Origin: Thiomicrorhabdus sp. 6S3-12
GTDB taxonomy: Bacteria; Pseudomonadota; Gammaproteobacteria; Thiomicrospirales; Thiomicrospiraceae
Reading direction: 5' to 3'
Length of the DNA stretch: 64,000 nt
Assembly (NCBI RefSeq): GCF_017571475.1
Contig: NZ_JAGETW010000005.1
Span: 62,001-126,000, forward strand
Part shown: piece by piece, positions 11,287 through 16,991 of the stretch
Numbering within the stretch: position 1 is the stretch's first letter
Layout of the letters: each line of letters starts with the position of its first letter
Notes under the pieces: model-generated
Databases searched by the model: none
What the model saw: the letters and a program-made list of their open reading frames with translations, nothing else
Told to the model about the DNA's origin: nothing
Made by a program: the position numbers and the translations under genes

Positions 11287-13200
11287 ATGTCTTTAAATCG
11301 CCGAGAATTTCTACATGTAATGTCTATGGCTGCTGCGGCAGGTATGTTGCCAGGTACGGCTTCTGCAATGTCTGGTGGTGCTGATAAAGCAGCTGCTGCG
11401 AAAGCGTCTGCAGAAATCTACAACCGCCCAATGAAAGGTAAGGTTCGTCTGCTACACATTACAGATACGCATGCTCAGTTGAAGCCAATCTACTTCCGTG
11501 AGCCAAACGTAAACTTGGGTACAGGTCCAGCTTTCGGTAAATTGCCGCACGTTGTTGGTGAAAAACTTCTTAAAGAAGTAGGTGTTGAAGCAGGTACTCC
11601 TCTTGCTCACGCATTCTCTTACCTGAACTTCCAAGACGCTTCTGAAACCTACGGTAAAGTTGGTGGTTTCGCACACCTTAAAACTGTTCTAGATATGCTT
11701 CGCGATCAAGCTGGCGGTCAGCAAAACACGATCACTATGGATGGTGGTGACCTTTGGCACGGTTCCGGTACTGCGCTATGGACTCGTGGTGCGGACATGG
11801 TTGAAGCGTCAAACCAGATCGGTGTTGATATTATGACTGGTCACTGGGAATTCACTTACAAAGAAGAAGAAGTTCTTAAAAACCTGAACAACTTCAAAGG
11901 TGAGTTCGTTGCACAGAACATCCGTGTTAAAGAAGATTCTCTATTCGGTGACGCTTACCGTGAAATGGTTGAAGCGAACAACGGCATCGGTCTATACGAC
12001 GAAGACGAAGCTCGCGCATTCAAACCATATGTAATCAAAGTTGTTAACGGCGAGCGTGTTGCGGTTGTCGGTCAGGCGTTCCCACGTACTGCTAACGCGA
12101 ACCCTCAGTCTAACTTCCCGGATTGGTCTTTCGGTCTACGTGAAGACGCGCTTCAGGAAACTGTTGATCACATCCGTGAAAACGAAAAACCTGCTGCGAT
12201 CGTTATGATCTCTCACAACGGTATGGACGTTGATATCAAGATGGCTTCTCGCGTTTCCGGTATCGATGCAATCTTCGGTGGTCACACGCATGACGGTGTT
12301 CCTAAAACTATCAATGTTAAAACTCCTGAAGGCGGTGTTTGTTACGTTACTAACGCTGGTTCTAACGGTAAGTTCGTTGGTTGTATGGACCTTGATATCC
12401 AGAACGGTAAGCTTAAAGGTGTTAATTACTCGCTTCTACCAGTATTCTCTAACGTTGTTGAAGCGGATGCAGGCGTTCAGAAATTCATCGATGACCTATA
12501 CAACACCAAGTATGACAACAACGTTATCGAATCACGTCGTGAAAGCGCTTACGTAAACAAAGATCGTCTAGGTAAAACTTACGGTGAGATCCTTGGTGAA
12601 GAGCTAGCGGTAGCGGAAGACACTCTATACCGTCGTGGTAACTTCATGGGTACTTGGGACCAGATCATCGTTAACGCACTACGTGAAGAGCACGATACGC
12701 AAATCGCAATGTCTGCCGGTGTTCGCTGGGGTACTTCTGTTCTTGCAGGTGAAACCATCACTATGGAACGCGTAATGGATGAAACTTCTATGACTTACGG
12801 TGAAACCTACAAGTCTGAAGTGACTGGTGCGCAAATGAAAGATATCCTTGAAGGTATCTGTGAGAACCTATTCCAGAAAGACCCATACCTACAGTCTGGT
12901 GGTGATATGGTTCGTCTTGGTGGTATGGACTACACTTGTGAGCCAAACGCAGCACTTGGTAGCCGTATCTCTGATATGCGTCTTGATGACGGTACTCCGC
13001 TTGAAGCGAACAAAACTTATACTGTTGCCGGTTGGGCGCAGGTTGAGGCAATCGGTGAAGGCCGCCTAATGTGGGATGTTACTGCTGATTACCTACGTCG
13101 TCACAAAAACGACATGAAGCTTAAGAAAGTTAACCATCCTAAGCTTAAAGGTGTTTCTGACAACCCAGGTATCGAAGCATACCCAGGTGAAATGGCTTAA
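11287..13200 (+). CDS. soxB: Thiosulfohydrolase SoxB
   Basis: Periplasmic dimanganese enzyme of the Sox pathway that hydrolyses the terminal sulfone of SoxYZ-bound sulfur as sulfate. 637 residues. A Tat signal with twin Arg (NRREFL, residues 4-9) and an Ala-rich hydrophobic stretch open the protein. Metal and active-site motifs of the 5'-nucleotidase/SoxB family follow: DTHAQL (Asp60, His62), DGGD, GHWEFTY (the SoxB form of the GNHE motif) and GGHTHDG. ATG at 11287 has GGAGAG upstream. Unlike the classic soxXYZAB cluster, no other sox gene is adjacent. Codon use is strikingly different from neighbours (CCA/CCT for Pro, ACT for Thr, CTA/CTT for Leu), suggesting very high expression. Confidence 0.97.
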   Translation: MSLNRREFLHVMSMAAAAGMLPGTASAMSGGADKAAAAKASAEIYNRPMKGKVRLLHITDTHAQLKPIYFREPNVNLGTGPAFGKLPHVVGEKLLKEVGVEAGTPLAHAFSYLNFQDASETYGKVGGFAHLKTVLDMLRDQAGGQQNTITMDGGDLWHGSGTALWTRGADMVEASNQIGVDIMTGHWEFTYKEEEVLKNLNNFKGEFVAQNIRVKEDSLFGDAYREMVEANNGIGLYDEDEARAFKPYVIKVVNGERVAVVGQAFPRTANANPQSNFPDWSFGLREDALQETVDHIRENEKPAAIVMISHNGMDVDIKMASRVSGIDAIFGGHTHDGVPKTINVKTPEGGVCYVTNAGSNGKFVGCMDLDIQNGKLKGVNYSLLPVFSNVVEADAGVQKFIDDLYNTKYDNNVIESRRESAYVNKDRLGKTYGEILGEELAVAEDTLYRRGNFMGTWDQIIVNALREEHDTQIAMSAGVRWGTSVLAGETITMERVMDETSMTYGETYKSEVTGAQMKDILEGICENLFQKDPYLQSGGDMVRLGGMDYTCEPNAALGSRISDMRLDDGTPLEANKTYTVAGWAQVEAIGEGRLMWDVTADYLRRHKNDMKLKKVNHPKLKGVSDNPGIEAYPGEMA

Positions 13201-13228
13201 TTTTCAATTAAGTTATAACACGCAAAAG

Positions 13229-13263
13229 AACCCGGCCCAGTTTATCTGCGCCGGGTTTTTTTA
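13229..13263 (+). terminator. Rho-independent terminator of soxB
   Basis: Stem AACCCGGC / GCCGGGTT with a 13-base loop followed by a T-run, 28 bases after the soxB stop. Confidence 0.85.
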
Positions 13264-13358: not shown

Positions 13359-13988
13359 ATGATTTATTTAATTCGTCTTACTTTTCCGGCTATTTATGGC
13401 TTCGGTATTCGCCAGCTTGGCTTGCTGTTACTGCTTTCGATTCAAGGATGTGTTTGGGTTGCCACACCGGATATTGCACATCTACGTGAAGATGCCGCAG
13501 TAAATCGAGTAATGGTCTGTCACGAATACGCTTGCAAACAGCTGGATGAAGTTAACTTGAGCGTAGCCGAAAAGATGCAGATTCAACAACTGTTTCAGGA
13601 AGCGTCAACTAAACCGGAAAGAGAGCGTGTCGTTATTGCCAAAGCGGTAGCGCTGATGGAGCAACTGACTGGCCAAAAAGTAGGAACCTGGCGAGATCAG
13701 GCTGAAAATAACGGAACCGGTGAACGCGGGCAGATGGATTGCATCGATGAATCGGTTAATACGACGACGTACCTCAAATTTTTTTCTGCAAACGGCTGGT
13801 TAAAGCATCATCAGGTTATGTCGAGGGTTGTGCGCAATCCTTTCTTCTTTGATGTCCATTGGACTGCGGTCATTCGGGAAATGGCAAACGGTCAGCTGTA
13901 CGCTGTAGATTCCTGGTTCAGGCAAAACGGTGAGGAACCGGTGATTTTGCCTTTGGCGGATTGGAAGGCAAAGAAAGAAGCCTTTTAA
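13359..13988 (+). CDS. Hypothetical secreted/lipoprotein with putative Cys-His-Asp triad
   Basis: A 209-residue protein I do not recognise as a named family. A hydrophobic N-terminal segment (LLLLLSIQGC) looks like a signal peptide with a marginal lipobox. In the C-terminal half three well-spaced residues, Cys128 (MDCIDES), His167 (VHWTAVI) and Asp184 (AVDSWF), have the order and setting of a transglutaminase-like/papain-fold Cys-His-Asp triad; the segments around His and Asp look like adjacent beta strands. This is an inference from pattern alone. I chose ATG at 13359 over the earlier in-frame 13263 start, which would overlap the soxB terminator and put 32 Cys-rich residues before the signal peptide. 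It converges with the tautomerase gene, 7 bases apart. Confidence 0.7.
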   Translation: MIYLIRLTFPAIYGFGIRQLGLLLLLSIQGCVWVATPDIAHLREDAAVNRVMVCHEYACKQLDEVNLSVAEKMQIQQLFQEASTKPERERVVIAKAVALMEQLTGQKVGTWRDQAENNGTGERGQMDCIDESVNTTTYLKFFSANGWLKHHQVMSRVVRNPFFFDVHWTAVIREMANGQLYAVDSWFRQNGEEPVILPLADWKAKKEAF

Positions 13989-13995
13989 CTGTTTT

Positions 13996-14421
13996 TTAGC
14001 GCATCATTTTCATTAAATCCTGAATGCGATAGATTTTCCCTGCTCCGCCCCAGTTTCCGTCGGGAACTTCATTAATCATGACCCAGACTCGGGCGGCATT
14101 AAGTAAATTATGGTCGGTTTCTTCAACCTGCAAGATCAGATCGGTAAGCTGTGCGGTAAGCTGTTCTTTTTTATCGCCGGCCATTGTGCCTTGGAATACG
14201 CTGACATCCAGTCGGTAATGCGGTTTATCAACCTTATGACCCGCCATGTAAAAATCGTCTCGTTTAAATTCGCAGAACTGAACCCAGCTGAGGTTTTGCG
14301 CCTTGGGGTGCCCGGCCATGCCTTCAAGAGCAAGAAGGGTGTCGGTTGCCTGTTTGGCAAATTGGTGCTTTTGTTCGGCAGAAAAGGTTTTTTCCGGAAG
14401 ATGTACAGTAATAAGTGGCAT
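13996..14421 (-). CDS. Tautomerase-family protein (4-oxalocrotonate tautomerase/MIF superfamily)
   Basis: A 141-residue protein beginning Met-Pro-Leu-Ile; removal of Met would expose the N-terminal proline that is the catalytic base in this superfamily. The length corresponds to two tandem beta-alpha-beta units in one chain (about residues 1-60 and 65-141), as in the longer tautomerases. The physiological substrate is unknown. Motif NEVPDGNWGGAGK near the C-terminus is shared with family members. It stands alone, in opposite orientation to both flanking genes, and no terminator is seen in the 7-base gap to its left. Confidence 0.75.
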   Translation of the reverse strand: MPLITVHLPEKTFSAEQKHQFAKQATDTLLALEGMAGHPKAQNLSWVQFCEFKRDDFYMAGHKVDKPHYRLDVSVFQGTMAGDKKEQLTAQLTDLILQVEETDHNLLNAARVWVMINEVPDGNWGGAGKIYRIQDLMKMMR

Positions 14422-14933
14422 GGGTTGAACCTTAAGTTGGTGAACTTCAGTTTATTCTAATATCCAGTTTACCTTGGCAGATGTAATTTTTTGGATTTTT
14501 CGTAATCTCTGATTAATGGGCTCTCCAGCTGTTTAATCGTGGTCTAATCCGCTTGCCTAAGATCATAAAGAAAGAGGTTTATCCCTGATGGTTTGGTTTT
14601 GTATGAATGTTTAGGATTTTTCTATCTGAATAAGGGGCGTTATTTAAGACGGTTAGCAATTTGCTCTGGAATAAGTTTTATTAATTTTTCATGGATTTGG
14701 ATCAACTATGAGACATATGTCCAATGTAAATTTTGAGGCTGTTCGAATAATAAATAATACTTAAGGTAGTCAGCTATCTGATATCAATTATATAAATTAT
14801 GTTTATTTGTTTAAAACCTACAGGTTCTCATTTTTAGGTTTTTATCAATCGACCAGTTTGAATGATTATTAAATTAGTTTAGTTAATCGTGTATTCGTTT
14901 AAGTCTTTTAGCTTTTCCAAAAAGGTGAATTCT
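14422..14933. other. 512-base AT-rich intergenic region
   Basis: No convincing gene. It holds the divergent control regions of the tautomerase gene and the large lipoprotein gene. The only structure noted is an inverted repeat AAAACCTA (14813-14820) / TAGGTTTT (14835-14842) with a 14-base loop and a short T-run, about 90 bases before the lipoprotein start. A possible 18-codon frame near 14708 lacks a clear ribosome-binding site and is not called. Confidence 0.5.
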
Positions 14934-16991
14934 ATGAAAAAAACAGTTTTAAACTCAGCTATAGCTGCGGCGATGTTGGCATTAACCGCTTGTGGCGGAT
15001 CGAGTAGTGATTCGGATGGAACAATCACAACATCAATCAGCGGGACTGCAAGCGCACCGGGCGGTTCTGTTGCCTATTTAAAAACATCCGATCGAATTAT
15101 GATGGCCTTAGGAGAATTCTTCCTGCCGTCAGCCCATGCTGGTTTTACCGGTTTAGAGCCGGTAACCGGTGCTACCGTTGAATTAATTCGTATCGATGAT
15201 GACGGAAATCAAGTAGGGGATGTTCTGGCATCAACGACAACTTCTGTAACCGGTGAGTATACTTTGGCCTTGCCGGAAGGAGTTTCTTTGGCAGGTAATT
15301 TGGTCGTAAGAATAACCGGAACCACCGATACGCTCGAAGCGATGGTCGTTGATCAGCAAGTTGATATTAACCCTATTTCCAAGTATGTATTAGATAAATT
15401 CGTTGATGACGACACGGTCGTATTGGCGGATTTGGATGTTAACGACATAGTCACCTTGAGTGGAAAAGTTGATGAATTTGATTTAACGGCCGCTCCTGAC
15501 GCCAGTCTGACTGAATTATTGGCACAGTTGGAAGCGGAAGTCGGGGAGTTTGTCGAAAGCGAGATTGAAGTCATTGAATCTGAACCGGCGGATGCAACCC
15601 AAATTGCGTCTGTCTCCGGAACATGGGCCCTGATGCAAGGGTCCGTCGCTCAGCATGATTCTGAAGCGGGGGATTATGGGACTACGGCTTCAGAAATAAG
15701 CCTTGAGAAAATCAATGTTGCAAGCGGTGTGGAGAGTGGAGAAGTTGAAATTTCTTCGAATAGTCTGTTCTTGGATGCAGAAGCGCAAATGGGCGTCTAT
15801 AACGGCGGTCAGTCGCTAACAACCTATACAGAAACCCAGGGAGACACGTTTTCTTTTACAGCCGATCTTGATAGCAACGGAAATTTAGTTATTGAAGAGC
15901 CGTTTAGTGAGGAGTTAGAGGCCGTAGCCGCTGAAGATTTGGATGGGCCGGATTTTGGTTGGCGATATCCGCCGTCAACTATTTTAATCAACAGTTCCGG
16001 GAACGATAATCTTAAGCTTGTTTTCAATAAAAGTGCCGCAGTACGTTACGAAACGGTTGATACTAATAGTGACGGAATTAAAGACGCCATTAATCCGGAT
16101 GCCAAGTCCGGGGATGAGGTTTTTGTTGATTATACGGTGATTCTGAAACAGGCGGAAACTCCGCCAACCCAGCTAACCGGTGATTACGGTTACCTTACTT
16201 ATCAGCAGGAGATGGATGAGGGTGGTTATTCATACTATAGCGTTGAATCAGGTAAGGCTTCCTTTACCGGCGCGACTACCTTTGATATCAATTATGCGAC
16301 AAGTGAGATAGAGCGAATTAGAAATCTGTCGACAGGGGACGTGTCGGTCAGCATGGCAGCCGATCAGCTTGGGTCAGGTGCTTCGGTATCTTATTCGATT
16401 GATTCATCAACGGGTATCATTTCTCTGTCTAACGGATACCTTCAAGGTGTGATTACTGCGGATAACAGCTTTATGGCTATGTTAGGGGTTGAAAATACCG
16501 GTCCCGATACAGGATTTATCCATAGAAGCTTTGTGGCGACCAAGTTACCTGCCTCTGTTATGCCAGATCTTAGTAATGCGCAATACAAGCTTTATGCGGT
16601 GATTTCCGGATTAGATTCGTCGGGTCGAATTGTAGCCAAAACACAGACCAGCGATTCAACTCTGGCGTTCAACGGAGATGGCACATTGGCCAGCCTTTTT
16701 GTTGAAGATAGTGGTATTGAAAGAGCTAATGATACAGCTCAAATAGAGACCCTTATCGGCCAGTCTGCTACGCTGGATAATTTAGCCGTGACTGTCGGAT
16801 CCGGTGACAATCTGGGGCGTGTAAAAGTGTCTTTAGGCGATTTGTCTGATAACGGTGTTCAGGATGAATCGTTTATGGACGGCTTTGTTTCGGAAGATGG
16901 AAATTTGATGTTGTTCAAGCTGAAAACCGACTTTTCGACAACAACAGTTAATGAATATGAGGTTGGATTTGTGATTGCAGTCAAAAAATAA
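14934..16991 (+). CDS. Large hypothetical lipoprotein with Ig/carboxypeptidase-regulatory-like domain
   Basis: A 685-residue exported protein of unknown function. The N-terminus is a lipoprotein signal peptide ending LTAC (Cys about residue 20), followed by a Gly/Ser linker. Residues about 75-130 (TGATVELIRIDDDG ... TGEYTLALPEG) resemble a carboxypeptidase-regulatory-like/Ig-type beta-sandwich common in surface proteins. The rest is acidic, Ser/Thr/Asp-rich and beta-rich without a recognised domain. ATG at 14934 has AAGGTGA upstream; an earlier in-frame ATG at 14889 would add 15 residues before the signal peptide. Monocistronic with its own terminator. Probably an outer-membrane or surface protein. 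Confidence 0.8.
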   Translation: MKKTVLNSAIAAAMLALTACGGSSSDSDGTITTSISGTASAPGGSVAYLKTSDRIMMALGEFFLPSAHAGFTGLEPVTGATVELIRIDDDGNQVGDVLASTTTSVTGEYTLALPEGVSLAGNLVVRITGTTDTLEAMVVDQQVDINPISKYVLDKFVDDDTVVLADLDVNDIVTLSGKVDEFDLTAAPDASLTELLAQLEAEVGEFVESEIEVIESEPADATQIASVSGTWALMQGSVAQHDSEAGDYGTTASEISLEKINVASGVESGEVEISSNSLFLDAEAQMGVYNGGQSLTTYTETQGDTFSFTADLDSNGNLVIEEPFSEELEAVAAEDLDGPDFGWRYPPSTILINSSGNDNLKLVFNKSAAVRYETVDTNSDGIKDAINPDAKSGDEVFVDYTVILKQAETPPTQLTGDYGYLTYQQEMDEGGYSYYSVESGKASFTGATTFDINYATSEIERIRNLSTGDVSVSMAADQLGSGASVSYSIDSSTGIISLSNGYLQGVITADNSFMAMLGVENTGPDTGFIHRSFVATKLPASVMPDLSNAQYKLYAVISGLDSSGRIVAKTQTSDSTLAFNGDGTLASLFVEDSGIERANDTAQIETLIGQSATLDNLAVTVGSGDNLGRVKVSLGDLSDNGVQDESFMDGFVSEDGNLMLFKLKTDFSTTTVNEYEVGFVIAVKK

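Follow-up and report, generated by a model that had tools for sequence, protein, structure and literature searches.

A Cys-His-Asp core is found in the arylamine N-acetyltransferases and in the cluster III papain-like families. The former have been grouped with the latter in the accessible text of an account of cluster III (PMC10318531), where the family described below is not named. Another point of comparison is the LapG/BTLCP family (PF06035), which includes HvyA and DvhG. LapG cleaves the adhesin LapA and requires its cysteine (PMC3032545). In HvyA, alanine at C192, H226 or D241 abolishes function and D194G damages it, and the protein with Asn for the triad Asp still works (PMC4241560). 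In DvhG, the Glu following the Cys is part of a required calcium site, and the calcium-site mutant alters the residues on both sides of the Cys (PMC13090378).

The window, i.e. the whole stretch of DNA that was analysed, comprises 64,000 nucleotides of Thiomicrorhabdus sp. 6S3-12 (assembly GCF_017571475.1, contig NZ_JAGETW010000005.1, positions 62,001 to 126,000, forward strand). It encodes, at 13359-13988 on the plus strand, a protein that we call X, using this working label also for its relatives. X resembles the LapG/BTLCP proteins in the predicted fold, export, the motif D-C-x-D, the order of C, H and D and their close spacing; by motif, D194 of HvyA corresponds to D130 of X. However, it differs from LapG in the lack of profile similarity, the absence of Glu at Cys+1, the extra pair C54/C59 and the gene neighbours. 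Arylamine N-acetyltransferases are among the structural neighbours of X (Z 3.7-5.4), but X is an exported protein and the PDB searches showed no sequence similarity between it and either these enzymes or cluster III.

The reading frame of X is open and, from the ATG at 13359, encodes 209 amino acids including C128, H167 and D184. The upstream gene at 11287-13200 (plus strand), an open reading frame, carries the presumptive name soxB from the first-pass annotation. It is followed by an intrinsic terminator at 13224-13262 (plus strand), a strong one by RNA folding (-23.3 kcal/mol, z -6.0 against shuffles) that is missing from the list of a simple terminator scan. X starts 96 bases downstream, and the soxB terminator named in the first-pass annotation is real. 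A longer alternative of 241 residues would start in frame at the ATG at 13263, placed exactly at the terminator end. In the ortholog from a sister species (G051, 80% identical) the matching ATG enters a different frame, and a GTG stands at the position of 13359. Because of both observations the start at 13359 is favoured and that at 13263 is unlikely. Comparison with the same ortholog yields dN/dS 0.126, that is, purifying selection, and therefore the protein is maintained.

The synonymous distance to the sister-species ortholog (L139) is dS 0.88 for X, 0.20 for soxB, 0.19 for a GGDEF gene 4 kb away and 0.54 for the tautomerase-like neighbour, which points to recombination at the X locus or to a local difference in rate. 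This neighbour (13996-14421 in the window, its family judged by eye) is convergent to X; in G051 it keeps its synteny with X and shows 94% identity. Further downstream, at 14889-16991, there is a lipoprotein-like gene of 700 residues; the matching place in G051 holds a chemoreceptor-like ORF of 749 residues instead.

The N-terminus of X (residues 1-31, positions 13359-13451, plus strand) looks like an export signal in a hydrophobicity and lipobox scan. It ends in SIQGC, which matches the lenient lipobox pattern that we take to be the PROSITE form, with C31 as the candidate lipidated cysteine. In a rough home-made scan (within 75 residues at most), a hydrophobic 12-mer precedes the conserved domain in 80 of 81 members, and a lipobox-like pattern occurs in 31 of 81, the window protein included. 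The signal peptide proposed earlier is consistent with these counts. We take X to be exported and probably lipid-anchored.

The first-pass annotation could name no family for X, and this holds for the four libraries searched. In Pfam, NCBIfam, PHROG and PADLOC no model fits the window protein, the single Pfam line being at chance level (E 0.17); the PADLOC defence library, searched with the window protein alone, gave nothing. A plasmid collection contains no match to X, and sequence searches of the PDB, whether queried with the protein or with either alignment, returned chance matches only. No paper recognised as dealing with the family emerged from the literature searches, and its absence is limited to those searches. 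Single members produce weak matches to Pfam, NCBIfam and PHROG models, which are scattered over unrelated families and were taken as chance. In Pfam, 23 families are matched at E 10 or below by any of 84 members, PF06035, PF01841 and PF00877 not among them, and the lowest match is to CATASP (2.5e-05, two of the 84 members). In PHROG, 43 families are matched at E 1 or below, and the judgement was made on 25 of the 43.

Six peptide patterns identified 206 stretches in species genomes that encode relatives of X. Of these, the best 80 belong mostly to Gamma-, Beta- and Alphaproteobacteria; one is from a Nitrospinaceae bin. The distribution is patchy: X is present in 4 of 62 genomes of its own family, 50 of 370 of the class and 11 of 397 of the phylum, the window genome being counted each time. 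The X proteins form a new and widespread sequence family that falls within a known enzyme class or close to one.

The three residues proposed in the first-pass annotation as a catalytic triad are exactly where it had placed them. C128 (codon 13740-13742), the proposed nucleophile, lies in the segment GQMDCIDESVN (residues 124-134, positions 13728-13760), at the start of the predicted helix 128-144. H167 (13857-13859), the proposed base, is the first residue of the strand 167-174, and D184 (13908-13910), the proposed third member, is the last residue of the strand 180-184. A further pair, C54-x4-C59 (13518-13535), falls in a predicted beta-hairpin with strands 50-55 and 61-66; all these features are on the plus strand. 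Columns C54, C59, E89, E101, G124-C128, D130, E131, N134, H151, H167, D184 and W202 are invariant in an alignment of 84 rows. In a larger alignment (A2) of 124 rows, 117 of them distinct and forming 80 groups at 70% identity, only C54, C59, E89, D127, C128, H167, D184 and W202 never vary. The rows in this count are 25-94% identical to the first one. A2 omits ten near-redundant loci of the Brucella/Ochrobactrum type and, deliberately, three homologues lacking the triad, and thus its 124 of 124 should be read together with the 50 of 53 given below.

One of the six search patterns contains C128 and another contains C54 and C59, whereas H167 and D184 are in none. Since two patterns of the first search contained the Cys motifs, the count was repeated on homologues found with a profile, itself built from triad-bearing members. 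In the class this search gave 57 places other than the query's own, of which 53 were examined and two fragments, one contig-edge case and one sequence with a stop were left out. The triad is kept in 50 of the 53; seven repeat loci of the first set, and among the 46 that are new relative to the first 80 loci it is kept in 43. Residues G124, Q125, M126 and D130 vary in these homologues. The phylum-wide profile search gave ten hits other than the query's own, and the triad is present in all eight that were checked, at least one of which repeats a species already in the set.

Two structures were predicted with AlphaFold, that of the window protein (model 1; mean pLDDT 82.8, 117 of 209 residues at 90 or above) and that of a member from Stappia with 37% identity to it (model 2; mean pLDDT 92.5, 137 of 168 residues at 90 or above). 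The order of elements is common to both: a hairpin, two helices, a helix starting at C128, a strand, a strand starting at H167, a strand ending at D184, another strand and a short helix. In both models the Cys is at the start of the core helix, the His on a strand and the Asp on the next strand. The predicted placement of C128, H167 and D184 is that of a transglutaminase-like fold.

Fold searches with the two models gave mixed results. Foldseek reported no hit at E 0.001 or below for either (best E 0.091 and 0.14), and the two best hits of model 1 are unrelated proteins. In the VIA-align 2 lists of 50 entries each, 45 (model 1) and 48 (model 2) are proteins of the transglutaminase/papain-like fold, although many rows repeat one protein; these counts include Rad4/XPC, protein 4.2, menin, RavJ and Ceg10, which we take to have this fold. 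The neighbours include LapG, TglA, transglutaminase 2, arylamine N-acetyltransferases, vasohibin, the PMT C3 domain and SseI. LapG aligns with model 1 at Z 5.4 (rmsd 4.5 A over 123 residues) and TglA with model 2 at Z 6.2 (rmsd 4.9 A over 120 residues), and the rmsd exceeds 6 A in some Rad4 rows of model 1. The best Z values, 6.0 and 6.3, are in the range that the tool calls common for unclear models. Such values prove little by themselves; what counts is that both neighbour lists agree with the conserved triad. The predicted fold class is the one suggested in the first-pass annotation, a transglutaminase-like or cysteine-peptidase core: residue placement and the coherent models and neighbour lists favour it, and the absence of significant Foldseek hits and of a profile link counts against it.

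At the profile level, X shows no link to the transglutaminase-like families compared. With hhalign, X (alignment A1 or A2) scores a probability below 1% against each of the three sets compared: 0.2% for LapG-like, 0.4-0.5% for transglutaminase-core and 0.2-0.3% for NlpC/P60 sequences. In the control with the same method and sets, LapG-like and transglutaminase-core sequences recognise each other at 84.8% (E 6.5e-06), so the distance from X to either set is greater than that between the two sets. X may have branched off early within the fold, or else part of the resemblance is due to convergence. Given these probabilities and the absence of any match among the 84 members, membership by profile in Transglut_core (PF01841) and NlpC/P60 (PF00877) was rejected. 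Transglut_core proteins share with X the predicted fold class and the triad order. Their distances are 44 (Cys-His) and 16 (His-Asp) in most of 25 sequences, as compared with 39 and 17 in the window protein, which differs from them also in being a small stand-alone exported protein.

We consider it somewhat more probable than otherwise that X is an exported lipoprotein, probably anchored in the outer membrane, whose mature part would be a small cysteine enzyme with the transglutaminase fold and hydrolysis as its most likely reaction. Our confidence had been slightly higher and was lowered because of the hhalign control. In the proposed mechanism D184 would orient H167, and H167 would deprotonate C128, the first residue of the core helix. 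This cysteine would then attack an amide carbonyl of a periplasmic or surface substrate, either a protein or the peptide part of the cell wall. The resulting thioester acyl-enzyme would most likely be resolved by water, as in a peptidase or amidohydrolase, and less likely by an amine, that is, by transamidation. C54 and C59 would probably form a disulfide that stabilises the N-terminal hairpin. The most likely putative activity of X is that of a peptidase or amidohydrolase.

The same triad and thioester would serve a transamidase, a cross-linking transglutaminase or a deamidase acting on envelope proteins, with the acyl group passed to an amine or a glutamine deamidated. The PMT C3 domain and SseI have deamidase activity, and both, like transglutaminase 2 and TglA, are among the structural neighbours. 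However, nothing in the sequence of X separates hydrolysis from transfer, and the profile link to Transglut_core is missing. On balance we regard a transferase or deamidase as unlikely.

The triad might also be kept for the fold rather than for catalysis, X being a structural or binding lipoprotein. The three exceptions among the profile-found homologues (L133, L134, L135 from genomes G423, G358 and G180, all of one taxonomic family, f120, in the sample) have N-E-D, T-N-E and R-S-E in place of C-H-D and keep C54, C59, E89 and H151; they are apparent pseudoenzymes, judging by their sequences. Their existence implies that the X family is able to do something without catalysis, which counts against the enzyme reading. 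Moreover, conservation equal to that of the triad is seen at C54, C59, E89, D127 and W202. On the other hand, C128, H167 and D184 do not vary in rows as little as 25% identical to the first one, and the exceptions lack the Cys and the His jointly, the pattern that a catalytic unit would be expected to show. A purely structural role seems quite improbable, and an enzyme remains the preferred reading.

X could be a divergent LapG (BTLCP, Peptidase_C93) that frees a surface adhesin under c-di-GMP control. It is of similar size, is exported, has the motif G-x-x-D-C-x-D and a close His-Asp spacing, and LapG structures are among the top VIA-align rows. By motif, spacing could be measured in 14 of 15 LapG-like sequences, the fifteenth having Ser for the Cys (L154, G062:C223, a Peptidase_C93 sequence), and in 25 of 29 transglutaminase-core ones. 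In LapG-like sequences the His is at Cys+35-38 in 12 of 14 and the Asp at Cys+50-55 in 11 of the 13 sequences in which it could be located. In X the Cys-His distance is 38-43 together with a His-Asp distance of 17 in 106 of 124 rows, and the Asp of the window protein is at Cys+56. However, 14 of the 15 LapG-like sequences have D-C-E-D, as opposed to G-Q-M-D-C-I-D in X. X has the Asp before the Cys, but the residue after the Cys is I, V or L in all 124 rows of X and I, V, Y or W in the eight phylum-search hits, never the calcium-site Glu. Besides, the window genome has two separate Peptidase_C93 genes elsewhere (G000:C11:156326-156664 and 311746-312081). A lapG-like match occurs near X in one of 150 rows, that of the query's own genome, a weak count coming from one query and many rows with short flanks. 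With PF06035 unmatched by any of the 84 members, the hhalign probability of 0.2% and no calcium-site Glu, membership in LapG/BTLCP was rejected, and a LapG function of this kind is very improbable. Although not a LapG, X may act in a similar manner.

Among the rows examined, nudJ-X-mnmA-hflD is the most frequent arrangement, and mnmA comes after X in 42 of 150 locus rows (34 of 132 distinct ones). In many Alphaproteobacteria a divergent trmFO adjoins X (23 rows, 22 distinct), and in some Betaproteobacteria accA-tilS follows it (nine rows). Other settings are rimP-nusA, sucAB-acnA and hemW. Genes here are longest-ORF calls with rough gaps and starts, and the names, recognised from sequence, are presumptive. 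Upstream of mnmA, tandem pairs of X with the triad in both copies were observed twice (L104/L116/L225 in G133:C4 and L086/L138 in G262:C12). Since X is exported and also occurs among unrelated housekeeping genes, its link to tRNA-modification genes is probably an inherited location and not a shared function. No partner gene is conserved across the family in the neighbourhoods examined and none points to a substrate, which suggests an enzyme that works by itself on a common envelope substrate and does not depend on a dedicated partner.

A functional link of X to soxB and thiosulfate oxidation, as hinted at in the first-pass annotation, was rejected as extremely improbable: only the window and the sister species G051 have the two genes side by side, in the same order, the strong terminator separates them, the other 80 of the 81 neighbourhoods compared contain no soxB-like gene, and G025 and G050 have X in a different setting. 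The place of X beside soxB is incidental.

A broader reading, which we hold tentatively and find rather unlikely, is that the X proteins make up a pan-proteobacterial family of cysteine enzymes of the envelope, controlled in a way of their own. The pair C54/C59 would act as a redox latch on C128, and the clade lacking the triad would retain the latch domain in a non-catalytic role, as a regulator or a binder. If this is true, its position in the nudJ-mnmA housekeeping operon, the commonest among the sampled genomes, would make X a general envelope-maintenance enzyme and not a part of a sulfur pathway, and the lack of a profile link, while LapG and transglutaminases recognise each other, would set it apart as a separate, early branch.

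The family is present in the 50 of 370 class genomes and in named Alpha- and Betaproteobacteria, yet it has no Pfam or NCBIfam model in the copies searched, and so its members are likely carried as 'hypothetical'. To LapG and HvyA, which control adhesion and capsule, X adds a protein of similar predicted fold without the calcium site. The alignment, the motif set and the natural variants lacking the triad make the activity of X directly testable.
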